Below are positions 10,546 through 25,254 of a DNA stretch of 64,000 bases, one piece after another. Below the pieces are notes generated by a model. It did no database searches. It worked only from the letters and a program-made list of their open reading frames with translations, and was not told where the DNA came from. The stretch's first letter is position 1. Every line of letters begins with the position of its first letter. Source of the DNA: Candidatus Anammoxibacter sp. (lineage in GTDB: Bacteria > Planctomycetota > Brocadiia > Brocadiales > Anammoxibacteraceae); the NCBI GenBank assembly GCA_021777055.1, contig JAIQZO010000093.1, positions 1 to 64,000 of the forward strand, written 5' to 3'. A program made the position numbers and the translations under genes.

Positions 10546-11793
10546 TTAACTATTAACAAGTTCTTGATAGAGGCCAACCAGCAGTTCAGCCTGCGATCTC
10601 TCCATAAATGCATGATTAAACGTAAACAACATTGTATAATCACCTAACGGGCCCTGAAAGAACATAAAATACGGGAGATGTCCCTTTATAACCCTAAGAT
10701 AAATTGCATAATCCATTAAAGAGGTATCCATTTTCTCAAGAAATGTATTTGGAGTCAAAATGGAAGCTCTCATTGGCATATAAGTATACGTGGCTGTAAA
10801 CTTTGAAATATTAACCATCTTTTTTGCAATCCAGATAAAAAGCGCCCTTGGTATACGATTAATATTCTGAAGAGATACCCATTCCTGTAAAAGAGAAGGT
10901 AAATTAGACGTACCATCCAATTTATCACTATGCTTATTAACAAAATCACGAAACAGAAGATCTGATTCCTTTTTAAATCGCCAGACCATCCTCCCTGAAT
11001 AGTTACCTATTTCTTCATCAATAAGGCTAATCCTATTTAAACGCAGATTTTGCGTATGGCTTAATGCACATTCATCAAACTCGCGGTTACTATAAAATCG
11101 AAGGATTGTTTCTACAAGTTTTAGCATTAAAAACTTTTCCCTGGTTACTCCGTATTTTTTTGCATTCTCTTTTACAATTGACGACTTAATCTCTATTTTA
11201 ATCCCATCTGGAGCAGAAATAGATTTTTTATCGTAATTCTTCAAATCAAGATGCTTACCCACACCTTTTGATTTTTTTACCGTAACGTATTTAATTATTT
11301 GTGAGAAATGAGATTTACGAAAAGAGGTCTCTTTTAAAAATTTAATAGAATTCGCCCTCATTTGACTATAATTTACATGAGAAAAAATAGAATCTAAATC
11401 ATAACTGTTTAAAAGATAATATGCGAGTGCAACGGCAGAGATTCCATCTCCTATTACATGACTTATTGTAAATACAAATTCAGAACTGTTATCATCAGTT
11501 AGATAATCCAACCTGATAAACTGATAATTTACAAGGTCAAGGCCAAAATATTTAAAATCATCAGACGGTGAGATATTTCTCAGATCTACATCACCGGGAA
11601 GATTCTCAAACCTTAAATAAGGAGCCATTAACTCCTTAAAAAATAAATTTAAATGCGGGATTTTCTTCTCAATCTCAACGGCCAGATCATCAAGCCTTGG
11701 TGATCTGGTAAATTTAATAGAGTATGTCAGATTTACCTGCTCTTTTAAGAAAAAATGACATATCCCAAATAGATAATCAATGATGTTTATCAT
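10546..11793 (-). CDS. Condensation-superfamily acyltransferase (wax synthase/PapA-like)
   Basis: The 415-residue product carries H-V-I-G-D-G at residues 112-117, a form of the HxxxDG catalytic motif of the condensation/BAHD/WS-DGAT/PapA superfamily, where the His deprotonates an alcohol or amine that attacks an acyl thioester. A second superfamily-like segment is QNLRLNRI...GNYSGRMV around residues 245-272. Overall similarity to named families looks low. It is the last gene of the lipid cluster on this strand, after a 248-bp gap. That position suggests acyl transfer from ACP or CoA to an acceptor in ladderane-type lipid assembly. The acceptor is unknown. Confidence 0.7.
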   Translation of the reverse strand: MINIIDYLFGICHFFLKEQVNLTYSIKFTRSPRLDDLAVEIEKKIPHLNLFFKELMAPYLRFENLPGDVDLRNISPSDDFKYFGLDLVNYQFIRLDYLTDDNSSEFVFTISHVIGDGISAVALAYYLLNSYDLDSIFSHVNYSQMRANSIKFLKETSFRKSHFSQIIKYVTVKKSKGVGKHLDLKNYDKKSISAPDGIKIEIKSSIVKENAKKYGVTREKFLMLKLVETILRFYSNREFDECALSHTQNLRLNRISLIDEEIGNYSGRMVWRFKKESDLLFRDFVNKHSDKLDGTSNLPSLLQEWVSLQNINRIPRALFIWIAKKMVNISKFTATYTYMPMRASILTPNTFLEKMDTSLMDYAIYLRVIKGHLPYFMFFQGPLGDYTMLFTFNHAFMERSQAELLVGLYQELVNS

Positions 11794-12041: not shown

Positions 12042-13124
12042 CTAATTGCTTTTAAATATCTCCACAAACTTCTGGAAACTTTCATTGCTTATAGGTTTCT
12101 TGAAACTGATTAGGTTGTCAGCAACAATTCCATGTTTCTTCCCCAAGACACCTATCTCTTCAATCTTCTCTATGGGCAATTTTCTACCTATTGAAAATGG
12201 CTCGCTTCTATCCTCCAAAGCAAGGAGAATTGTTTCACCAAGGCATCCCGGAATATCATTGCCATTCCAGTCAAACATCTTATACTTTTTCCTTCCGTTG
12301 CTGGGCAGTGTAACAATCCCTCCGTCAACAATCAAAACGTCTTCCCGCTTCTTCTTCTTTTCAATTACATCACGAGGTTGAGCAATATCAATAACAACGG
12401 TTCCTTTATCCAGCAAATCTGGGTCTATTATACTGCCGGTAGAAGTTGCGGTGAATATTATCTTTGACATCTTCAACCCATCACTAAGGCTATTTGTAAA
12501 CTCTACATCAACGTCTGTTGTATCCTTTATAAGAGACACAAACTGTTTGAGAAAAGAGGTCTCACGTTTACTTACCAAGACCAGATTAACTCCTTTTTTA
12601 GCAAGTATTTGAGAAACTGCAAGAGATATACTTCCTGGAAAACCAACAATAGTTACCTTAAGATCGCTAAAATCAAATCCAGTCTCATTAACTATTCTCT
12701 CAAAAACCTTTATCGTTGAATGGACCGTAAAACAATTACCACTTGTAACCGGAATAGATATCTGTTCATTAAGTTCCTTTCCCCTGGAACCCACTACACC
12801 GGTCAAGCCACCAAGCCCGATAACTCCGGCCCCCCAATCTTTTAACCGGTCGCTTGCAACCTTCAACAGTTCGAGAGCCGCCCCCTGATTCTCCAGAAAC
12901 TGTTCAGGAGCAAGATATACGCACAATACCTTACCAGCACACCTTGTACCATTTTCAGATACAACATTCTTAAGATCAAAGAGGTCTTTAACCAGCCCTT
13001 TTTTCAGGCATAACTCTTTTAATATGTCAGAGGTACCAAGTGGAAGAAATGGGATGCCATACGGAGGAAGCATAATACGCAGCTCACTCAGGCTCCTAGG
13101 ATGCATAATAAATCCAAAATCCAT
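12042..13124 (-). CDS. Acyl-ACP-reductase-like (AAR-like) NAD(P)-dependent oxidoreductase
   Basis: The 360-residue product resembles the long-chain acyl-ACP reductase of cyanobacterial alkane synthesis. It opens with MDFGFIMHPRSLSEL (AAR proteins open MFGLIGHLTSLE). It then has GLGGLTGVV at 103-111, TSGNCFTVH at 127-135, a Rossmann-like loop GFPGSIS at 161-167, and C-L-G-E at 294-297 followed by LLALED and KIEEIGVLGKKHGI. The Cys at 294 aligns with the catalytic Cys of cyanobacterial AAR. If correct, it would reduce acyl-ACP to fatty aldehyde. Anammox lipids contain ladderane alcohols in ether linkage, which would need such a step. The third Gly of the dinucleotide loop is Ser. A shikimate-dehydrogenase-like or glutamyl-tRNA-reductase-like enzyme is the alternative. 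Confidence 0.7.
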   Translation of the reverse strand: MDFGFIMHPRSLSELRIMLPPYGIPFLPLGTSDILKELCLKKGLVKDLFDLKNVVSENGTRCAGKVLCVYLAPEQFLENQGAALELLKVASDRLKDWGAGVIGLGGLTGVVGSRGKELNEQISIPVTSGNCFTVHSTIKVFERIVNETGFDFSDLKVTIVGFPGSISLAVSQILAKKGVNLVLVSKRETSFLKQFVSLIKDTTDVDVEFTNSLSDGLKMSKIIFTATSTGSIIDPDLLDKGTVVIDIAQPRDVIEKKKKREDVLIVDGGIVTLPSNGRKKYKMFDWNGNDIPGCLGETILLALEDRSEPFSIGRKLPIEKIEEIGVLGKKHGIVADNLISFKKPISNESFQKFVEIFKSN

Positions 13125-13181: not shown

Positions 13182-14102
13182 TTAATTATTGTATAATTTA
13201 ATTATCTGAAATTCCATTTGTGCAGAAGTGACCAACTTATTTTCCACTGTAACTTTGGCTTTAGCTAATGCTGTATTATCTGAAATGTCTACAAGCTTCA
13301 AATTCATGACGATCTGATCGCCAGGCCGCACATATTTTCTAAACTTAATCTTCCGATTCTCTTTTAACAGGATTTTTACTAATGTTCCAGCACTTTCCTT
13401 TGCCGTCTCCTGAATCAACTTTTCAGCCAAATGTACCAGAGATTCAATAATCATTGTACCTGGCATGACATGCCGCTTAGGAAAATGATCAACAACGAAA
13501 TCTTCCGTCATTGTCATGCTCTTTACTCCAACGATGTAGTCTCCGGCCTTCAAATCCAGCACCTTGTCAACAAGGTTTAGATCAAAATGTCTGTCGTTAT
13601 CAAACATTCCTGGTTCCCCAATGGATAAATCTGTTTCTGCAATGAATTGCTGAAGATCTCTACTTCCCACCAGTGAATAAGCCCTCTTTTTGACCATTTC
13701 CACATATTCCAGCTCTTCCATTGGGACAAAGGCACAAACACCGTTCTCTAATTCAGATACGACCTTTCCGTCAACCTCAACACTTCCGGCACACAGTGCA
13801 TCTTCATCATGCAAAGTCTTTATTTCTGCCTTAATAAGCATTTGATCTCCAGGCCTGATGTCCCCCGAAAATTTTGTAGAATCAGTCATCACCGCCACTG
13901 GTTTAACTGCAAAATCCTTTGTATATATTACCAGCCATGATATTAACTGTGATATAGCCTCAATAGTAAACGATCTTGGTAAAACAGGAAAACCTGGTAC
14001 AATGTTCACAAGATACTCATCACTGAAAGAAACATTCTTTATACCAACAGCAGACTTACCCTTTTCCAGTTCCAGTATTCTATCTACAAATAAAAATCTC
14101 AT
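13182..14102 (-). CDS. Double-hotdog FabZ-like fusion with a degenerate first domain
   Basis: Two FabZ-like hotdog domains lie in one 306-residue chain. Domain 1 (1-130) begins MRFLFVDRILELEKG and has I34 where FabZ has its catalytic His (NIVPGFPVLPRSFTIE), while the Glu is kept at 48. Domain 2 (about 165-300) has a complete site, DHFPKRHVMPG with H206 and E220. So one half is probably structural or binds acyl chain, and the other can dehydrate 3-hydroxyacyl-ACP. The ATG at 14102 is chosen because every hotdog protein in the cluster begins MRF; the longer frame opens with TTG. The gene lies 45 bp downstream of the methyltransferase gene, in an apparent operon. Confidence 0.85.
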   Translation of the reverse strand: MRFLFVDRILELEKGKSAVGIKNVSFSDEYLVNIVPGFPVLPRSFTIEAISQLISWLVIYTKDFAVKPVAVMTDSTKFSGDIRPGDQMLIKAEIKTLHDEDALCAGSVEVDGKVVSELENGVCAFVPMEELEYVEMVKKRAYSLVGSRDLQQFIAETDLSIGEPGMFDNDRHFDLNLVDKVLDLKAGDYIVGVKSMTMTEDFVVDHFPKRHVMPGTMIIESLVHLAEKLIQETAKESAGTLVKILLKENRKIKFRKYVRPGDQIVMNLKLVDISDNTALAKAKVTVENKLVTSAQMEFQIIKLYNN

Positions 14103-14147
14103 TATTTTTGTCACCAAATAATATTTTGGGAAAGATCAATTTACCAT

Positions 14148-14993
14148 TCACTGTTTCTCAAAACCAAGGACAGCATACCTGCTATGCCCTGACCGCTGCC
14201 CCCACTCAATCATACTCATAGTCAGGTTTGGAATAATAGAAAATCTCTTTAAACTGCTAAATAATTTCTTTAGAACGTAATAAGTTGGTAGTGTATTTTC
14301 AGTGATGTCTCGCTCCATACTAGACTTAAACCCCGCACTTTCAGCAATTTTCTTATACTCACCCACTGTAAACTCTATACCTGCCCGTCCGAAAAAGAGT
14401 TTTATCATTTTTTTTACAATCTTCCTTCTTCCGTCAATAAAATAAAGCTTTTCTCTATCAGGGACAAAATCAGACATCGCAAATTTCCCCCCTTTTTTCA
14501 AAACTCTAGACACCTCTTTAAAAAAAGCAATTTTATCACTGAAGTGGAATATACACTCCACTGCAAGCAAAACGTCCACAGAATTATCCTCTAGCGGAAG
14601 CCTGCAAGCATCACCCTGAACAAACGAAATATTGTTACCATTACATGGTTCTACATTTTCCTGAGCAATAGCAAGCTGCCTTTCATCAATATTTATTCCC
14701 GTGATCCTCAAATTTGAATACTTTTTATTTAAGCTATCAATTGTCCCGCCAAATCCACAGCCAACATCAATCACACGTAAATCATCTTTGATCTCCCCAG
14801 CATCAAAAAGTACCTCGCACATCCGGTCTGCAGCAGATACAAAATCATCAATAGTACCGTCAGCACACGTTGGATCATCCCAATAGCCCCAGTGAACGTG
14901 CTGTCCAAGACATTTTTTAACTTCAGGGTTTCCACTTTCAATTCCATTAATAATAACGTCAAAATATGGCAAATTTGATATCGAATCAAACAT
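14148..14993 (-). CDS. SAM-dependent methyltransferase (class I)
   Basis: The 281-residue product has motif I VIDVGCGFGG at 74-83, an acidic post-motif (TGINIDERQL), and VDVLLAVECIFHF plus VLKKGGKF later, as in small-molecule C/N/O-methyltransferases of the sterol/tocopherol type. The N-terminal HWGYWDDP resembles lipid and natural-product methyltransferases. Soluble; no membrane segment is seen. It lies between the second catalytic ketosynthase and the double hotdog gene. Methyltransferases recur in ladderane candidate clusters of anammox genomes, but methylation of the lipid is not established, so the substrate is open. Confidence 0.85.
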   Translation of the reverse strand: MFDSISNLPYFDVIINGIESGNPEVKKCLGQHVHWGYWDDPTCADGTIDDFVSAADRMCEVLFDAGEIKDDLRVIDVGCGFGGTIDSLNKKYSNLRITGINIDERQLAIAQENVEPCNGNNISFVQGDACRLPLEDNSVDVLLAVECIFHFSDKIAFFKEVSRVLKKGGKFAMSDFVPDREKLYFIDGRRKIVKKMIKLFFGRAGIEFTVGEYKKIAESAGFKSSMERDITENTLPTYYVLKKLFSSLKRFSIIPNLTMSMIEWGQRSGHSRYAVLGFEKQ

Positions 14994-15104: not shown

Positions 15105-16403
15105 TCATTCCAGGATTTTCCTGGCAATCAAGGTTGAGTTTTGACCACCAAACCCAAATGAATTAGACAAAACAGTATTTATTCTCAAATCTCTGGCCTT
15201 ATTTGGAACATAATCAAGATCACACTCATCATCCGGGGTTTTATAGTTGATAGTTGGAGGTGCACAGTCGTTTTGCAGTGCAAGGATTGAGGCAACAAAT
15301 TCAACTGCCCCTGCAGCAGAGATCAAATGGCCTATCATCGACTTGGTACTACTAATCGGTATTTTATAGGCCCTTTCACCAAAAACCTCTTTTATGGCTT
15401 TTGTCTCCACTTTATCATTTTTTGGAGTTGAAGTACCATGGGCATTTATATAATCTATCTCATCTGGAAATAAGCCGGCATCATTTATCGCATTTATCAT
15501 AGCTCGGGACGCACCTCTACCTTCAGGGTGCGGATCTGTAACCCTGTATGCATCCATGGATGTTCCATAACCAACTAATTCTCCATAAATGTAAGCATTT
15601 CTCTTCTTTGCGTGTTCCAGTTCCTCAAGTACAATCACGCCCGATCCTTCCCCAAGTACAAAGCCATCCCTGTTTTTGTCAAATGGTTTTATCGCCTCTG
15701 TAAGCTCATCATTTTTTTTAGTCATCGCCTCCAGCAAGCAAAAACAAGCCACACCAAAAGGAAAAATCATGGAATCATAACCTCCGGCTAAAGAAATATC
15801 CAATTCATCCCTCTGGATAGCTCTAAAACCGAGGCCAATTGCATGTGAAGCAGCCGCACATGCAGAAATTGGAGTATAACATTGTCCTTTGATTCTGTAT
15901 TGGTTCGCAACCGTAACAGCTCCTAAATTTGCAGGAATGACAGAGAGTTCACCACTATTTGATAAGTTGCGGCTAAACGACTCAAAATTAAAGGATTTGT
16001 TGTCAGAAACATTTTCCTGAAAATCGCAAAACATGATAGGATCTTCTTTTGATATTGCAGTGTGAACGCCAGCACCAAAGGTTACTCCACACCGAAATGA
16101 ATTCAGAAGTGACTCATCAATGCATGAATCATTAACCGCTAACCTTGCTGCCGCGTTGGCAAAATGGGCGCGCCGATCACTAGTTATATTCAGCACATCC
16201 ATCCCCTTTAATATCTTTGCAGAATCAAATCCCTTTACCTCTGCGGCAATTCTAGTGGGAAAGCCTGAGGCGTCAAAAAGAGATATACCTGAAACACCGG
16301 ATTTCCCGGTAAAAAGAGATTCTTGAAACTCTTCTTTTCCTATCCCAATGGGTGAGACAACACCAAGACCGGTTACAACTACACGCCTTTTAACTATTTC
16401 CAT
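15105..16403 (-). CDS. fabF: Beta-ketoacyl-ACP synthase II-like, catalytically complete
   Basis: A 432-residue ketosynthase with the full Cys-His-His triad: C182 in PISACAAASHAIG, H322 in NAHGTST and H359 in MIGHL. It elongates acyl-ACP with malonyl-ACP by decarboxylative condensation. The GEGSGVIVLEE and GFGGQN signatures are intact. It is the second of two complete ketosynthases in the cluster. Compared with housekeeping FabF it carries a longer, divergent region around residues 120-165. It is followed by the methyltransferase gene 111 bp downstream and preceded by a hotdog gene 35 bp upstream. Chain-length or substrate preference cannot be read from the sequence. Confidence 0.93.
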   Translation of the reverse strand: MEIVKRRVVVTGLGVVSPIGIGKEEFQESLFTGKSGVSGISLFDASGFPTRIAAEVKGFDSAKILKGMDVLNITSDRRAHFANAAARLAVNDSCIDESLLNSFRCGVTFGAGVHTAISKEDPIMFCDFQENVSDNKSFNFESFSRNLSNSGELSVIPANLGAVTVANQYRIKGQCYTPISACAAASHAIGLGFRAIQRDELDISLAGGYDSMIFPFGVACFCLLEAMTKKNDELTEAIKPFDKNRDGFVLGEGSGVIVLEELEHAKKRNAYIYGELVGYGTSMDAYRVTDPHPEGRGASRAMINAINDAGLFPDEIDYINAHGTSTPKNDKVETKAIKEVFGERAYKIPISSTKSMIGHLISAAGAVEFVASILALQNDCAPPTINYKTPDDECDLDYVPNKARDLRINTVLSNSFGFGGQNSTLIARKILE

Positions 16404-16438: not shown

Positions 16439-16918
16439 TTAATCAATACTACATTTAGGCATGCCATCACTGCCAAGAAATCCGCCACTGTTGAAGATAT
16501 ATGTATCTAGAGACTCTATCTTTCCTGATTCTGAAACTTCATGATGGGCGTAAGAGAGGTTGTCAATTTCAGCAACAACAGAACCGTCAACACTGATCGT
16601 CCCCCTGACAATTGAACCGTAATCGTTTGACGAAACTATTTCAACCAGGATAGATAACTGATCTCCGGGCCGAACCGGCGTAAAAAATTTAGCCTTGCCA
16701 ATTTTCGCAAGAATAGTCGAATATTTATAGTCAGATGATATGGTTATAGCCCATCCCCCAATCTGAGCAACACACTCAACCATTAGGGCTTCCGGCATTA
16801 TCGGGGACTTGGAGTAGTGATCAATAAAGTACTCCTCACCAATAGTCACGTTCTTTATACCAACGCAGCTAACCCATCTTTTTAAACTAGTTATTTTGTC
16901 AAAAAGAATAAAACGCAT
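16439..16918 (-). CDS. FabZ-like hotdog dehydratase, MPE variant
   Basis: A 159-residue single hotdog protein. The catalytic pair is present (H34 in IDHYSKSPIMPE, E48 in LMVECVAQ), but the canonical MPG turn is MPE and the usual HFP is HYS. Both changes are shared with the hotdog protein encoded at 20180. The start MRFILFDKIT matches its paralogues. It probably dehydrates 3-hydroxyacyl-ACP, or isomerises or binds an unusual acyl chain. It lies 57 bp downstream of a more canonical FabZ gene in the same apparent operon. I am sure of the fold and less sure of the reaction. Confidence 0.85.
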   Translation of the reverse strand: MRFILFDKITSLKRWVSCVGIKNVTIGEEYFIDHYSKSPIMPEALMVECVAQIGGWAITISSDYKYSTILAKIGKAKFFTPVRPGDQLSILVEIVSSNDYGSIVRGTISVDGSVVAEIDNLSYAHHEVSESGKIESLDTYIFNSGGFLGSDGMPKCSID

Positions 16919-16975: not shown

Positions 16976-17428
16976 TTATTTGCTACTTGTCTGCGTTAGC
17001 ATCTCAAAAAAAGCCTTTGCATCCTCAGGGTCTTCAAGCTCCTCAATATTAACATAGCTTAGTTTTCCTGACTTTACACTGGATTTTACCTTATCATCTA
17101 CTAACACTTTTGCTTTAAACTCTACGCCACTATCATCGATAGAAGTCAATTCCACATTCAATACCATCCTGTCGCCAGGGCGGACCATACCGCTATACTT
17201 TACTCCCTTTATTTCCACGACCTTTGTCTTTACTGTATAATCCTTTGAAACAAAAACCAGCCATGAAGCCAGCTGCAACACCGCCTCTAATTGTAAAGCG
17301 CCAGGCATGATAGGAAATTTCGGGAAGTGATCCGCAAGGAAATCCTCTGACATTGTAACATCTTTAACCCCAACGGCAGACTTGCCCTTCTCGTACTCCA
17401 ATATTTTATCTATAAGTACAAATCTCAT
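16976..17428 (-). CDS. fabZ: 3-hydroxyacyl-ACP dehydratase FabZ
   Basis: This 150-residue protein is the most canonical hotdog enzyme of the cluster: H34 and E48 lie in DHFPKFPIMPGALQLEA, the classical FabZ active-site stretch. It removes water from 3-hydroxyacyl-ACP to give trans-2-enoyl-ACP. It follows the acyl carrier protein gene by 36 bp on the same strand and begins MRFVLIDKIL like its paralogues. The length is normal for FabZ. Confidence 0.92.
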   Translation of the reverse strand: MRFVLIDKILEYEKGKSAVGVKDVTMSEDFLADHFPKFPIMPGALQLEAVLQLASWLVFVSKDYTVKTKVVEIKGVKYSGMVRPGDRMVLNVELTSIDDSGVEFKAKVLVDDKVKSSVKSGKLSYVNIEELEDPEDAKAFFEMLTQTSSK

Positions 17429-18005: not shown

Positions 18006-18749
18006 TCAGTTCCTGAATCCACCATCAACGTGTAGAATCTCTCCAGTAATGTAATTTGCCATATCAGAAGCAAGAAACACCACCGCCTTTGCTATATCAT
18101 CAGGCTTGCCAAGCCTTTTAAGGGCAATCATATCAAGGATATGATCTTTTGCCCTTCTTACAACAGTCTCACTCATCTCTGTTTCAATTACCCCGGGAGC
18201 TACAGCATTAACCGTAATCCCTTTTGGCGCGAGCTCCATTGCCATCGCCCTGGAAAAAGAATTTATAGCGCCTTTGGAAGCAGCATAATTAGATTGACCT
18301 TTTCCCGCCCTTTCAGATGCAACAGACGACATGTTTATTATCTTTCCGCTCTTTTTCATTATCATATATCTGGCAACTGCTTTTGTACAATTATAAACCC
18401 CACCAAGATTTGTATTTATAACTGCATTCCACTCTTCAGGCTCCATCATTACCAACAAATTGTCCCTAACTATACCCGCATTATTTACAAGCACATCAAT
18501 ACTCTTAAACTCGTTGAACAGATCTTCTATCATCTTGTCAACTTCGTCTTTATTGGCAACATCCGCTTTGAAACTTTTAGCAACGCCCCCAAAACCATTG
18601 ATCTCCTTCACGACCTCCTCTGCCGCATCACCCATTTGAGTGTAATTTACAATTGTTATTGCTCCTTCTTTAGCAACATTAATCGCAATGGATCTACCTA
18701 TTCCGCGCGAAGCACCCGTAATCAAAACTACTTTACCTTTTAACAACAT
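18006..18749 (-). CDS. fabG: 3-oxoacyl-ACP reductase FabG
   Basis: A classical short-chain dehydrogenase of 247 residues. The NADPH loop TGASRGIG is at 11-18, NNAG at 89-92, and the catalytic tetrad N114, S142, Y155 and K159 is in place (YAASK). The C-terminal GEILHVDGGF is typical of FabG. It reduces 3-oxoacyl-ACP to 3-hydroxyacyl-ACP. It sits 130 bp upstream of the acyl carrier protein gene and just downstream of a KS-beta-like gene. Confidence 0.95.
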   Translation of the reverse strand: MLLKGKVVLITGASRGIGRSIAINVAKEGAITIVNYTQMGDAAEEVVKEINGFGGVAKSFKADVANKDEVDKMIEDLFNEFKSIDVLVNNAGIVRDNLLVMMEPEEWNAVINTNLGGVYNCTKAVARYMIMKKSGKIINMSSVASERAGKGQSNYAASKGAINSFSRAMAMELAPKGITVNAVAPGVIETEMSETVVRRAKDHILDMIALKRLGKPDDIAKAVVFLASDMANYITGEILHVDGGFRN

Positions 18750-18803: not shown

Positions 18804-20102
18804 TCAATCTTTGAATTTTTTAACAATCAAAGCCGCATTTTGACCACCGAATCCCTGATTAATCGAAAGCGCCGCATTAATCTCCATCTCCCTCGCCGTT
18901 CCAGAACAATAATCAAGATCACAATCAGGATCTTGATTGGTTAGATTAATAGTAGGAGGTACAATTTTTCTATCAATTGCCAAAGCACATATCATCAACT
19001 CCATTGCCCCTGCAGCAGCACCCGTATGCGCAACAACTGGTTTTGTTGCACTAAGGGTGATATTGTGGGCATTATCTGCAAAAACAGCTTTTACTGCTTT
19101 CGTCTCCGCAATGTCACTTTCAATAGTACCGATACCATCAACATTAATATAATCTATTGCATCCGTATTTATACCTGCAATTTTACCTGCTTTTCTAACC
19201 GCATCAGCTATACCGCTACAACCAGGTACTTCTTCATATAAGTGAGTAGCATTCGATGTATTACCATAACCAACTATTTCTCCGTAAATCTTGGCGTCTC
19301 TCTTTTTTGCGTGTGATAACTCCTCAAGGATAACTATACCTGCCCCCTCACCCAAAACAAAACCATCTCTATCCCTGTCAAAAGGACGAAAAGAGCTACC
19401 GTCGTTACTATTAGCGGTCAACATATTATGATTATAATAACAGAAAAAATTACTCGCCATGGCAAGAGTATCGTATCCTCCGGCAAAAGTAACGTCCACA
19501 TCCCCTCTTCTTATTGCCATAAACGCATCACCTATCGCATTAGAACCCCCTGCAAACGATGTTACAACATTATCATTCACACCCTGAGCATTGTAATAAA
19601 TAGATATGTAACAAAATAGATTATTGCAAAGAGTCTTCAACAACCATAACGGATGAAGCCGGTCAAGACCCTCCGACCCGAACTTTGACGAATCAAACAG
19701 TTTATTCTCCTCATCCCAGGAAGCCTTTATTACCTCCGCCAGGTCTTTATTATCAGGACCCTCATCATATCCACCACCACCAGATCCAATTATTGCTCCA
19801 AACCTGTGAGGGTCAACCGAACAGTTTTCTAACCCTGAATCGTCATATGCCATCTTTGCGGCAGCTAATCCGAGTTTGACATTTCTGTACATTATTTTTA
19901 ACGCTTTGCGGTCACTAATATAATCTTTCGGATTAAACCCCTTAACTTCACCGGCTATTTTAACAGGTAATCTCTCTTTATCACATAAAGTAACCTCACC
20001 GATACCTGATCGACCAGCAACAATATTTGACCAATTCTCTTCAACTCCAGTACCGGCACACGAAATCATACCCATACCTGTTATTACTACTCTATTATTC
20101 AT
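18804..20102 (-). CDS. Ketosynthase-like protein lacking Cys and one His (KS-beta/chain-length-factor-like)
   Basis: A 432-residue thiolase-fold ketosynthase homologue without a full active site. F183 replaces the catalytic Cys (VTSFAGGSNAIG), D322 replaces the first His (NVDGIGTIES), and only H359 remains (VVAHT). It keeps the overall KS fold signatures (GEGAGIVILEE, GFGGQN). This loss pattern is like KS-beta/chain-length factors of type II PKS, which pair with an active KS and set chain length. The start is ATG at 20102 (MNNRVVITGMG). An upstream in-frame extension of 32 residues would overlap the preceding gene and adds nothing conserved. Confidence 0.85.
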   Translation of the reverse strand: MNNRVVITGMGMISCAGTGVEENWSNIVAGRSGIGEVTLCDKERLPVKIAGEVKGFNPKDYISDRKALKIMYRNVKLGLAAAKMAYDDSGLENCSVDPHRFGAIIGSGGGGYDEGPDNKDLAEVIKASWDEENKLFDSSKFGSEGLDRLHPLWLLKTLCNNLFCYISIYYNAQGVNDNVVTSFAGGSNAIGDAFMAIRRGDVDVTFAGGYDTLAMASNFFCYYNHNMLTANSNDGSSFRPFDRDRDGFVLGEGAGIVILEELSHAKKRDAKIYGEIVGYGNTSNATHLYEEVPGCSGIADAVRKAGKIAGINTDAIDYINVDGIGTIESDIAETKAVKAVFADNAHNITLSATKPVVAHTGAAAGAMELMICALAIDRKIVPPTINLTNQDPDCDLDYCSGTAREMEINAALSINQGFGGQNAALIVKKFKD

Positions 20103-20179
20103 TCTTGTTTTTTTATTAACTAAATAGTTACAGATGTCCCTAAGATTACACAACAAAACATTGCAGCATAGTTGAATAT

Positions 20180-20656
20180 TTAAAGAGCCCGATACCAAAC
20201 ATTATCCAAAAACGATGCATCCCCACTTCGGTATAAATTAAATTCCTTTTCATACTCTTGCGAAAACCCCGGATACTTATAACTCCAGAAAACTATCCTT
20301 TCCACATCTGCCACAACAACATCCCCAACCGTTGCCTGACCTGACACTTGTGACCCAAAATCATTGTTTGACGAGATATCAACTTCAATCCTTAAAACAT
20401 CGCCAGGACTAACATCTTTATAACATCTAAAATTATCTACGGAAAGCAGAATCGACAACGCCTCAAAATCAATTGATGCCGCAGTCGCCCAGCTACCAAC
20501 CTGCCCAATGGCTTCAAGTATCATAGATTCAGGCATTACAGGACGTTTTTGATAATGGTTTGAAAAGAAGTCTTCACTGAAAGATACACTTTTGAGACCA
20601 ACACATTTCCCATTCTTCTCAAACTCAACAATCTTATCAAACAAAAAAAATCTCAT
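20180..20656 (-). CDS. FabZ-like hotdog protein, MPE variant
   Basis: A 158-residue hotdog protein with H34 (SNHYQKRPVMPE) and E48 (MILEAIGQ), so the dehydratase pair is kept, while HFP is HYQ and MPG is MPE. It is closest in these features to the protein encoded at 16439, which suggests that the two arose by duplication within the cluster. It starts MRFFLFDKIVEFEKNG. It lies between the two KS-beta-like genes. The likely role is dehydration of 3-hydroxyacyl-ACP or a related step. Confidence 0.85.
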   Translation of the reverse strand: MRFFLFDKIVEFEKNGKCVGLKSVSFSEDFFSNHYQKRPVMPESMILEAIGQVGSWATAASIDFEALSILLSVDNFRCYKDVSPGDVLRIEVDISSNNDFGSQVSGQATVGDVVVADVERIVFWSYKYPGFSQEYEKEFNLYRSGDASFLDNVWYRAL

Positions 20657-20791
20657 GTCACCAACCTTAGAAACTCAAAAGAAACTTAAATTAGTTTTAC
20701 CTCTACCGGCAAAATCAAAATTAATGTGATGTAGAATCAAGATACTTTATTTCCACTCCACCGCAATGCTTTCTCTTCCAACATCAGTCTC

Positions 20792-22093
20792 CTAACCGCA
20801 AAACCGTTTAACGATCAACGTTGCATTTTCACCGCCCAACCCAAACGAATTGGACATAACAGTATCTATCTTGGCTTCTTTTGCAGAATTTGGCGTATAA
20901 TCAAGATCACAATATCCATCAGCATTGTCATAATTAATAGTTGGAGGAACAAATCCGTCCCTGATGCTTAGCAGCGACACTATTAATTCAGCTGAAGCCG
21001 AAGAGCACAGCAAATGCCCCATCATTGATTTTGTGGAGCTTATAAATACCTCTCTTGCTCTATCGCCAAAAACCCGTTTAACGGCATCCGTCTCGGCGCG
21101 ATCAGCTTGTACAGAAGACTGTCCGTCCGCATTAATATAATCTATCTCATTACTGTTAAGACCTGCATTCCGAAGAGCCATATTCATACATGCCTCAGCA
21201 CCCTCAGCACTTGTAAAGAAAATGTCGTCGCCAGCATTTAGCCGATTGCCGTATATTGATGTGGAATAGCCCACAACTTCACCATAGATATTCGCTCCCC
21301 TCTTAAGCGCATGACCAAGCTCTTCAAGGATCACTATACCCGCCCCTTCACCGACAACGACACCGTTACGGTCCCTTTCAAAAGGACGACTAGCAGCTTC
21401 CGGTCTATCGTTGCTATGAGAGAGTAAATTGTGTAGTGCCAGATAGAGAATAGTAACGGTGTTTATAGACTCACTTCCCCCCGCAACAAATATATCAGCC
21501 TCATTATGTTTTATAGAGTTAACGGCCTCGCCCACCGCCTGAGCGCCAGCAGAGGCAAGGGAACAAAATGTCATATTAGGGCCTTGAATATTATAGTTAA
21601 TCCCAATATGACACAAACTCATATTAGGTGATGCCATTAACGGCCACAAAGGATTCAAGGTTTTATACCCTTCGCTACCGAATTTGTGCGGATTAAAGCC
21701 CTTACCAATGTCAGTGGATGCTTCAAAAGCGCTGGAGACCTCGTCTATTGTGTACTGTGTACCCTCAGTACCTAAAGATACGCCTACCCTGAAAGGATCC
21801 AGCTTCTCAATCTCCAATCCGGAATCTCTAAATGCTAATTCTGTTGCAGCGACAGCAAACTCAATGGTCCTGTTCATCAATTTTAGAGATTTCTTCTTTT
21901 TTACATACAAGGACGGATCAAAACCAGATATCTCACCTGCAATCTTTACCGGACAATGGCTGCAATCAAACGAATTAACAGGTTTTATACCAGAAACACC
22001 CCCTTTTAACGCGGCAACATTATCTTCAACCGTCAACCCAACAGGCGAAACCAGCCCCATCCCAGTAACAACTACACGCCTATCCATAATCAT
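20792..22093 (-). CDS. Second ketosynthase-like protein lacking Cys and one His (KS-beta-like)
   Basis: A 433-residue ketosynthase homologue. A180 stands where the catalytic Cys should be (FCSLASAGAQAVG), D323 replaces the first His (NADGQSS), and H360 remains (MMGHL). The rest of the KS fold is intact (GEGAGIVILEE, GLGGEN). It shares with the other KS-beta-like protein a block KFGSEG-x4-L-x-PLW near residues 137-150. Its gene ends the 46-bp gap after a catalytic ketosynthase gene, so the two form an adjacent alpha/beta pair as in type II PKS. ATG at 22093 or 22087 are both possible starts. Confidence 0.87.
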   Translation of the reverse strand: MIMDRRVVVTGMGLVSPVGLTVEDNVAALKGGVSGIKPVNSFDCSHCPVKIAGEISGFDPSLYVKKKKSLKLMNRTIEFAVAATELAFRDSGLEIEKLDPFRVGVSLGTEGTQYTIDEVSSAFEASTDIGKGFNPHKFGSEGYKTLNPLWPLMASPNMSLCHIGINYNIQGPNMTFCSLASAGAQAVGEAVNSIKHNEADIFVAGGSESINTVTILYLALHNLLSHSNDRPEAASRPFERDRNGVVVGEGAGIVILEELGHALKRGANIYGEVVGYSTSIYGNRLNAGDDIFFTSAEGAEACMNMALRNAGLNSNEIDYINADGQSSVQADRAETDAVKRVFGDRAREVFISSTKSMMGHLLCSSASAELIVSLLSIRDGFVPPTINYDNADGYCDLDYTPNSAKEAKIDTVMSNSFGLGGENATLIVKRFCG

Positions 22094-22139: not shown

Positions 22140-23432
22140 CTATTCCTTAAACTTTTCAATAATCAGGCTTACATTCTGCCCGCCAAACGCAAAGGAGTTC
22201 GACAGAACCAGATCAACTTTTCTCTCTCTGGGAACATTAGGCACATAATCCAGGTCACAGTCAGGATCAGGGTACTCCTGATTAACTGTAGCCGGGATCA
22301 AATCGTTATTTATAGCCTGAATACTTACTATCGCCTCAACTGCAGCTGAAGCAGCAATAGTATGCCCCAACATCGATTTATTAGAACTAACAGGCACATC
22401 ATAGGCCCTCTTGCCAAAGACGTTCTTGATGGACCTGGTTTCGCATTTATCATTCAACTGCGTAGAAGTACCATGCGCATTTATATAGTGAACATCTTCA
22501 ATCCCCCTGCCGGCATCTTTAAGCGCCCACTCCATAGAAAGCGAAGCTCCTCGGCCGTCAGGCGGAGAATCAGTTATACGATAAGCATTTGATGAACACC
22601 CAAACCCCGTTAACTCAGCAAGAATATTTGCCCCTCTCGCTTTTGCATGGGACAACTCTTCTATTAGTATCATCCCGCTTCCCTCTGCCAGAATAAAACC
22701 GTTGCGGTTACGATCAAAAGGCCTACTAGCACTTTCAGGCTCATCATTTCTTGTCGACAAGGCGCCCAGCAAACCAAACCCGGCAACAGTAAACTCACTT
22801 ATGAGTCCTTCACATCCACCGGCAAGCATCACGTCCGAATCTCCCGATTCAATAAACCGCATAGCTTTACCAATAGCATGCCCGCTAGATGAACATGCGG
22901 TAGACGACGTACTAAGTGGACCACGGGCATTAAACATTATGGACATGATCGCAGCTGGAATATTTGCATTACGTCTAATGGGCCATAACATACCAAGATC
23001 CTTATAACTTTCGGGCATATATTTATTTGTAACGAAGGATTCATAGACATTTTCCGCACCGAAAACGGAGTCAAACTGTTCAAGCCCAGCATGCTCTTCT
23101 CCTGTCCCCACAGAAACCCCGAACATTACAGGATCCAGTTTCTTTATATCCAATTTAGCTGATTCCACTGCCATTTGCGCCGCACCAATCCCATGCATTG
23201 CGGAACGGGACAAAAACTGTGAAAAATTATTGTCATCCGGAACATATTTTTTTACATCAAACCCCTTAACCTCACCTGCTATCTTTGCGGGAAAAGTTTC
23301 AGGGTCAAACAATGTTATACGCGAAACACCCGACCTACAGTTAACTATCCCTTCCCAGGTACTCTCAACGTCAAGCCCCAGTGAAGTAACTGCACCCATG
23401 CCGGTAACAACGCACCGTCTCTTCTTATCCAT
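22140..23432 (-). CDS. fabF: Beta-ketoacyl-ACP synthase, catalytically complete (KS-alpha of the pair)
   Basis: A 430-residue ketosynthase with the complete triad: C180 in SSTACSSSGHAIG, H320 in NAHGTSTQ and H357 in MLGHT. It would condense acyl groups with malonyl-ACP. Typical signatures GSGMILIEEL and AFGGQN are present. It is encoded directly before a KS-beta-like gene (46 bp gap), so it is the probable catalytic half of a heterodimer. Upstream, 433 bp of repeat-bearing DNA separates it from fabD, so a promoter for the cluster may lie there. Confidence 0.93.
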   Translation of the reverse strand: MDKKRRCVVTGMGAVTSLGLDVESTWEGIVNCRSGVSRITLFDPETFPAKIAGEVKGFDVKKYVPDDNNFSQFLSRSAMHGIGAAQMAVESAKLDIKKLDPVMFGVSVGTGEEHAGLEQFDSVFGAENVYESFVTNKYMPESYKDLGMLWPIRRNANIPAAIMSIMFNARGPLSTSSTACSSSGHAIGKAMRFIESGDSDVMLAGGCEGLISEFTVAGFGLLGALSTRNDEPESASRPFDRNRNGFILAEGSGMILIEELSHAKARGANILAELTGFGCSSNAYRITDSPPDGRGASLSMEWALKDAGRGIEDVHYINAHGTSTQLNDKCETRSIKNVFGKRAYDVPVSSNKSMLGHTIAASAAVEAIVSIQAINNDLIPATVNQEYPDPDCDLDYVPNVPRERKVDLVLSNSFAFGGQNVSLIIEKFKE

Positions 23433-23865: not shown

Positions 23866-24801
23866 TTAATTATAGCGAAACGCCCCAAATTTGTCTATGC
23901 TATTAATCTTTTTCTTTCTGTTAACTTTCTTCATAATACCTACCATTGTACGCCCTGGCCCCACACCGTAAAACTCCTCCACTCCATCCTTAATCATATT
24001 TTCCAGAGAATGACACCACAAGACAGGACTTGTCAGCTGCTTTATCAGAGAATCCCTTATCTCATCAGGCTCACAGATGTAATTACCGTCTACATTTGTA
24101 GCAACAGGAATCTCCGCTTTAGATATTGATATACTCCTTAACTCCTCCTCCAATTTCTTACTTGCGGAATCCATAAGATGCGAGTGAAAAGCGCCGTTAA
24201 CATTCAGAGGAATCACCATTTTTGCGCCACGTTCCATGGCCCTCTTTTCTGCCTCTTTAATCGCATTTATCTCGCCGGAGACAACAACCTGCCCCGGATA
24301 GTTATAATTTGCAGGACTAATAGCGCCCGCCCACTGGACATCATCACAAATATTTTCCACCGCCTCATTATCAAGCCCTATGATTGTAAGCATTCCACCT
24401 GGAGACTCTTGGCACGCCTCTTCCATGTACAATCCCCTGTTATGCACCAACCTAATAGCATCTTCAAACTTAATAGCACCAGCAAAGACCAATGCCGTAT
24501 ACTCACCAAGACTCAGCCCAGCCACAGCAAAACATTCATTACCAGAATCACCAAGCTCTTTAAAAGATTCAATAATCGCCAGGCTTGTTACAAGTATTGC
24601 AGGCTGACACAAAGAGGTCCTGTCCAGATCCTCCTGCCTTCCATTAAAACAGATATCAGCAAGGTCAAACCCCAGCACGTCATTTGCTTTATCGTAAAGC
24701 CTCCTGGCGCCAGCCGAATTTTCATAAAAATCCTTCCCCATACCGATATACTGTGCTCCCTGCCCTGGGAAAAGATACGTTTTTTTTGCGTTGCTAATCA
24801 T
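23866..24801 (-). CDS. fabD: Malonyl-CoA:ACP transacylase FabD
   Basis: Loads malonyl groups from CoA onto the acyl carrier protein, supplying every ketosynthase step of the cluster. The acyltransferase signature FPGQGAQYIGMG is at 11-22, the nucleophile S97 is in GLSLGE and the catalytic H206 in NGAFHSHLM. The GLSLGE variant (Leu in place of His before the Ser) is also found in other FabD proteins. The ATG at 24801 is chosen: GGAGG lies about 8 bases upstream, whereas the longer frame starts inside the ribosome site region. It is the first gene of the lipid cluster on this strand. Confidence 0.95.
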   Translation of the reverse strand: MISNAKKTYLFPGQGAQYIGMGKDFYENSAGARRLYDKANDVLGFDLADICFNGRQEDLDRTSLCQPAILVTSLAIIESFKELGDSGNECFAVAGLSLGEYTALVFAGAIKFEDAIRLVHNRGLYMEEACQESPGGMLTIIGLDNEAVENICDDVQWAGAISPANYNYPGQVVVSGEINAIKEAEKRAMERGAKMVIPLNVNGAFHSHLMDSASKKLEEELRSISISKAEIPVATNVDGNYICEPDEIRDSLIKQLTSPVLWCHSLENMIKDGVEEFYGVGPGRTMVGIMKKVNRKKKINSIDKFGAFRYN

Positions 24802-25254
24802 TATAACCACCTCCAAAAAATAAACATGCAAAAGACTTATTACTCTAACTTACTAAACTTTCGCACATTTCATGCCAAAACAAAACAATACTCTTCACAT
24901 TGTATACCGCCTCATACTATCCAACAAAACATGACCACCGTAAAGCTTTTAAAATACACCACTTACGCTAACCAACAGCAGGTATATTACCTGCCGCAAT
25001 ATTACCAAAATCTTCAATTTAAAATATAAATACTGAAAATGTTACATTGCGTATCAACAAAGACTATCCATTTAAACAAATAGTTGCAAGAGTGTTAAAA
25101 CTAACATAACTCCTATAATATCGGCAAATTAACACCATACTAAAGTGTTACACATTGTAACATTCATATATTGAGTCAAAAAGTACCACAACGGCAGGCC
25201 TCGAGAAAGTCAAATTTTAATAACTCCTCCACACATTAGCAACACACAACACAA
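24802..25254. other. Non-coding stretch upstream of fabD
   Basis: I see no gene here. It is AT-rich and should hold the promoter of fabD, but I cannot point to a convincing -35/-10 pair. Confidence 0.4.

Follow-up and report, generated by a model that had tools for sequence, protein, structure and literature searches.

Two cysteine-less ketosynthase paralogs as probable KS-beta-like partner subunits in a gene cluster of Candidatus Anammoxibacter

A cluster with two intact and two substituted ketosynthases

The window, meaning the whole 64,000-nucleotide stretch of Candidatus Anammoxibacter sp. DNA analysed here, comes from a 5.9 Mb genome that encodes hydrazine synthase alpha and thus belongs to a member of the anammox family. 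Two intact ketosynthases (KS1a and KS2a) and two Cys-less paralogs (CLF1 and CLF2) are encoded there alongside ACP, ketoreductase (KR) and dehydratase (DH) genes, an arrangement like that of KS-beta or chain-length factor (CLF) subunits (Table 1). Intergenic gaps measure 30-135 bp from KS1a through the reductase gene and 433 bp before KS1a. KS1a and CLF1 are adjacent, separated by 46 bp, and four genes (KR, ACP, DH2 and DH3) lie between CLF2 and KS2a. No enoyl reductase was recognised in the cluster, its listed ORFs include no FabH-like KSIII, and no cyclase or aromatase was found among the cluster's genes. We rejected identification of the cluster as the known ladderane cluster itself, since a phytoene desaturase gene and a radical SAM gene are both missing from it and the genome's ladderane-type pairs map to contigs C14 and C66.

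Table 1 Features of the ketosynthase cluster in the window.
Feature	Coordinates	Strand	Basis
FabD-like malonyl-CoA:ACP transacylase	23866..24831	-	TIGR00128 308.6 bits (cutoff 260.9); OFTM214 syntenic ortholog 73%
KS1a, intact ketosynthase alpha	22140..23432	-	C180/H320/K352/H357; 72% to OFTM214 ortholog
CLF1 (KS-beta 1)	20792..22093	-	A180/D323/K355/H360; Cys and first His replaced
DH1, FabA/FabZ hot-dog dehydratase	20180..20656	-	PF07977; active-site alignment NHY..MPE..LE
CLF2 (KS-beta 2)	18804..20102	-	F183/D322/K354/H359; Cys and first His replaced
KR, FabG-like ketoreductase	18006..18749	-	TIGR01830 285 bits, below cutoff 297.75
ACP, 136 aa	17465..17875	-	PF00550; Ser motif LGAESID; long C-terminal extension with LFTV motif
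DH2, FabZ-like dehydratase	16976..17428	-	PF07977; DHFP..MPG..LE
DH3, FabZ-like dehydratase	16439..16918	-	PF07977; DHY..MPE..VE
KS2a, intact ketosynthase alpha	15105..16403	-	C182/H322/K354/H359
Class I SAM methyltransferase	14148..14993	-	PF08241; no counterpart in OFTM214 cluster
DH4-DH5, fused double hot-dog protein	13182..14117	-	Two PF07977 stretches
Acyl-thioester reductase	12042..13124	-	NF053554 positions 2-358, E 4.8e-82, under full-length cutoff; TIGR04058 E 1e-17
415-aa protein	10546..11793	-	HxxxDG-type motif SHVIGDG; adjoins cluster

The reductase resembles the N-terminal reductase part of PigE and, more weakly, the acyl-ACP reductase AAR. Membership of PigE itself was rejected, as the aminotransferase part is absent and the N-terminal reductase part alone matches. 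The adjoining 415-aa protein returned no Pfam, NCBIfam or PDB relative and was not found in the corresponding locus of the relative OFTM214 (see below); its motif would fit a possible CAT/condensation-fold acyltransferase, and its membership of the cluster is uncertain. Within DH4-DH5, the catalytic His is gone from the N half, while His and Glu are present in the C half. These dead and live halves echo the pairing of active and inactive KSs.

An initial annotation of this DNA had described two KS-beta-like proteins with Ala180 and Phe183 at the Cys position, Asp at the first His and a retained second His, encoded near two complete KSs. Alignment to E. coli FabF (C164/H304/K336/H341, Met1 counted) reproduced every one of these states, and the residue numbers proved exact. 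The first His is D323 in CLF1 and D322 in CLF2, the second is H360 and H359, the catalytic Lys is also retained (K355 and K354), and both KS1a and KS2a carry the full C-H-K-H set. The Phe gate (F401) is replaced by L419 in CLF1 and is unchanged in CLF2. CLF1 is 433 aa long; the CLF2 ORF opens upstream at 20198, and its likeliest start, an ATG at 20102, gives 432 aa. An AlphaFold2 model of CLF2, built from a 47-row alignment, has a complete thiolase fold (mean pLDDT 91.6). Its best PDB match is B. subtilis FabF (TM 0.90), and the structures nearest to it are FabF homodimers, not CLFs. These data support the view that CLF1 and CLF2 are KS paralogs of full length and thiolase fold whose active site cannot serve condensation.

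A second feature of the two paralogs is a PLW-type loop at FabF positions 132-136, a segment that, going by FabF and CLF structures, we take to line the partner's acyl tunnel. It reads NPLWPL in CLF1 and HPLWLL in CLF2, the Trp being W150 and W153, respectively. KS2a lacks this beta-type loop and carries a GEL loop, reminiscent of the acidic ELEQE type of alpha subunits described below. The corresponding loop of KS1a (GMLWPIRRN) has the W without the PLW motif, so the loop asymmetry is clean for KS2a and CLF2 only.

Conservation and relatives across Planctomycetota

Among named genomes, the closest relative is Candidatus Anammoxibacter OFTM214, the sole genome of the same family that we found. 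There the genes run fabD-KS1a-CLF1-DH1-CLF2-KR-ACP-DH2-DH3-KS2a-DH4/5-reductase, the same order as in the window; the methyltransferase is missing, and a B12-radical SAM protein and two sulfotransferases adjoin the reductase. CLF1 and CLF2 share 67% and 62% protein identity with their syntenic orthologs, which show identical residue states (A-D-K-H for CLF1 and F-D-K-H for CLF2). Between the two genomes, dN is 0.25-0.30 for CLF1 and CLF2 versus 0.20 for the intact KSs, with synonymous sites saturated. Both paralogs are under purifying selection almost as strong as that on the intact KSs; low dN together with saturated synonymous sites therefore marks them as functional genes and not decaying copies. 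Because the same states recur in the OFTM214 orthologs under purifying selection, the residue losses reflect neither decay nor chance.

The core of the cluster extends well beyond this family. The long-extension ACP family occurs in 99 of 392 sampled Planctomycetota genomes, mostly in compact loci with a DH-(KR)-ACP-DH-(KS-beta)-KS-alpha core. We had considered the cluster unique to this genome and dropped that idea when the wider ACP search revealed the core as a trait of the phylum. The long ACP with its LFTV motif is thus the heart of a phylum-wide DH-KR-ACP-DH-KS cluster.

Where two KS genes lie side by side in the sampled Planctomycetota, C-H-K-H is intact in the alpha, which at FabF 133-139 mostly carries acidic, ELEQE-like residues. 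In the beta this stretch is PLWLLK-like, usually accompanied by losses of catalytic residues; all four are reliably present in the alpha alone. Betas have a loop hydropathy of +1.4 and 0.08 acidic residues, alphas -1.6 and 2.8. We also checked ten genomes in which the retrieved core region contained no neighbouring beta; in G399 and G098 that region contained no adjacent KS of either type. All ten encode Cys-less W-loop (PLW) paralogs elsewhere in the genome, generally two each, although one G399 entry may duplicate the same ORF. The Cys site of these paralogs (L219-L238) is Glu or Asp, and once Ser. Other planctomycete betas are mostly E/D-H-K-N or E-H-K-H.

Three beta-type relatives depart from this pattern: two have an intact C-H-K-H (L198/G116 and G087), and that of G063 is C-C-K-H, having lost one His only. 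Staged loss is suggested because two beta-type relatives are intact and one lacks just a His; from these sequences, the beta lineage may have shed its catalytic residues stepwise.

Phylogenetically, the KSs and CLFs of the window fall within a clan of 20 rows (support 100/98) that includes planctomycete KSs and some from Streptomyces plasmids. The clan lies apart from the aromatic CLFs (Aro1/Aro2) and from this genome's own ladderane-type CLFs. With catalytic and loop columns removed, its betas all fell on one side of a single branch with weak support (71/65), suggesting that the beta type arose only once. This masked tree implies at least three changes of Cys state, and a sister relationship of CLF1 and CLF2 was neither demonstrated nor rejected (p-AU 0.34). 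Linkage between the W-loop and residue loss on the tree was not significant, as the independent events are too few (1 to 3 independent pairs).

Candidate partner subunits and alternative roles

We consider that CLF1 and CLF2 are probably KS-beta-like (CLF-like) partner subunits of ketosynthase heterodimers, a reading to which we give a probability of roughly 70%. The KS-beta/CLF assignment made in the initial annotation holds insofar as these are Cys-less KS-fold paralogs beside an intact KS, an ACP and a KR; by descent, however, they fall outside the aromatic CLF clade. Aromatic type II PKS KS-CLFs of the actinorhodin kind likewise pair a full-length Cys-less paralog with an intact KS, but they carry Gln at the Cys site, where CLF1 and CLF2 have Ala and Phe, and form a separate clade. 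The window, unlike those systems, also encodes several DHs.

Other parallels are the aryl polyene ApeO-ApeC and highly reducing Iga11-Iga12 systems, which combine a KS-CLF with KR and DH as the window does and make conjugated chains; in KS-CLFs, both subunits contribute to the wall of the cavity (PMC8358021). The window betas are full length, whereas ApeC is half-size and has a single domain, and the window, unlike either system, combines a doubled KS-CLF set with a thioester reductase and a long ACP. Two Streptomyces plasmid clusters (NZ_CP106799 and NZ_CP108813; L123 and L126) share with the window fabD, KR, two DHs, an intact KS, a Cys-to-Ala KS and an ACP that belongs to the same long-extension family. 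They differ in an extra KS:CLF fusion and a KSIII, and in keeping both His residues in the Cys-to-Ala protein. KS-CLFs have been catalogued from Planctomycetes (PMC10132072). Cys-less KSs are thus a known kind of protein; what is new is the lineage itself, its apparent intermediates and the presence of two sets in one cluster.

The initial annotation had further matched each alpha with one beta (22140 with 20792, and 15105 with 18804). These pairs fit the gene order, because KS1a and CLF1 adjoin and the gene content of CLF2-KR-ACP-DH2-DH3-KS2a matches the phylum-wide DH-KR-ACP-DH-(CLF)-KS core. Strict KS1a-CLF1 and KS2a-CLF2 pairing and control of chain length by the betas are both plausible. 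Pairing could instead be shared or exchangeable, with KS1a, for example, accepting either beta, as the W common to the loops of KS1a, CLF1 and CLF2 and the four-gene distance between KS2a and CLF2 might suggest. We regard this as unlikely, if a real contender: KS1a adjoins CLF1, the conserved core genes lie between CLF2 and KS2a, and the GEL loop of KS2a recalls the ELEQE type of alphas.

Heterodimer partners need not set chain length. In cispentacin synthesis, AmcF-AmcG is a heterodimer of a KS and a non-catalytic partner that carries out one elongation and ring closure, AmcG being termed a 'cyclization factor' (PMC10698177). CLF1 and CLF2 might similarly shape another step, such as cyclisation, substrate selection or release of an intermediate. 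Beyond the precedent of a dead partner, the carboxylate (Asp) that replaces the first His in both betas would be in keeping with such a role. We nevertheless think it rather improbable, given that AmcF is only distantly similar to the window KSs, the family searches gave no match specific to AmcG, and no cyclase-type partner is recognisable.

A different function has been proposed for comparable proteins. Kuenenia (Kuste3606, Kuste2805 and Kuste3348) and R. baltica (NP_865682 and NP_866153) have FabF paralogs that lack the catalytic Cys and His; these proteins, which like those of the window belong to unusual FASII clusters, were read as enzymes recruiting non-FAS moieties and not as partner subunits (Rattray et al. 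2009, PMC2649909). The R. baltica proteins carry a D/E substitution, as do the planctomycete betas surveyed here. The window proteins differ in having Ala or Phe with Asp and in keeping the second His, and they stand apart from the genome's ladderane-type CLFs. The retained H360 and H359, and a position on the tree away from the CLFs of contigs C14 and C66, separate them from the Kuste3606 kind. Two further pairs of a KS and a Cys-less KS, of ladderane type, lie elsewhere in this genome (C14:45000-64000, L066; C66:95000-114000, L067). In PDB entries 9s5h and 9s5i, chain B resembles the intact KS of contig C14 (661 bits) and chain C its Cys-less neighbour (575 bits); each entry holds eight copies of B and of C, and 9s5i adds ACP. 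From these chain sequences and counts, through which we know the entries here, we infer that a complex of an anammox KS with a dead KS has been solved. Like the pairs proposed for the window, it would join a Cys-bearing FabF-like chain to a Cys-less one, but these are other, ladderane-type paralogs, in which the second His is Glu. With a comparable anammox dead KS found together with an intact one, and no nucleophile at the Cys site of CLF1 or CLF2, a partner subunit is the better fit, and recruitment or transfer of a non-FAS moiety onto the pathway by these proteins seems very unlikely.

KSQ-type enzymes have Gln in place of Cys and both His residues, the first of which is needed for decarboxylation; a role for CLF1 and CLF2 as KSQ-like malonyl-ACP decarboxylases making starter acetyl-ACP, which the absence of a FabH-like KSIII from the cluster and the retained Lys and one His might favour, is the least probable of all, since Asp has replaced that first His in CLF1 and CLF2 and in their OFTM214 orthologs.

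A proposed pathway and its wider bearing

In the partner-subunit reading, KS1a with CLF1 and KS2a with CLF2 would form two heterodimers of one reducing type II PKS-like cluster, each with a single working site in the alpha. FabD would load malonyl onto the long ACP. The beta would complete the dimer and place its hydrophobic PLW loop at the floor of the partner's acyl tunnel, limiting the size or shape of the chain, while Ala or Phe together with Asp would prevent the beta itself from being acylated or decarboxylating malonyl. C2 units would be added and dehydrated by KS, KR and the DHs, yielding an unsaturated chain for want of an enoyl reductase, and the PigE-like reductase would free this chain as an aldehyde. 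The product, judged from gene content, may be a reduced, dehydrated and possibly polyenoic acyl chain.

More tentatively, and at clearly less than even odds, the Planctomycetota may possess an alpha/beta lineage of their own in which the beta loop arose before residue loss and intermediates still live. The anammox-family cluster would use two such pairs one after the other on a single ACP, with a polyunsaturated aldehyde or lipid as the product. The apparent intermediates would run from C-H-K-H (G087/G116) and C-C-K-H (G063) through E/D-H-K-H/N, the state of most betas, to the A-D-K-H and F-D-K-H of the Anammoxibacteraceae.

Type II polyketide synthases pose the question of how a homodimeric KS turned into an obligate pair in which one half is dead. 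Apparent living intermediates and two differently substituted dead subunits in one cluster are both available in this lineage, making subunit specialisation and residue loss separately testable in planctomycete KS-betas. Seen this way, the 'aberrant FabF' proteins known from anammox bacteria and from other planctomycetes would be partner subunits, a view that bears on the lipid pathways of planctomycetes, that for ladderanes included. The same genome additionally encodes many modular PKS ketosynthase domains, in frames of ~1,250 to 4,665 aa on contigs C47, C74, C77, C84 and C9, a richness in modular PKSs that is unusual for the anammox family.
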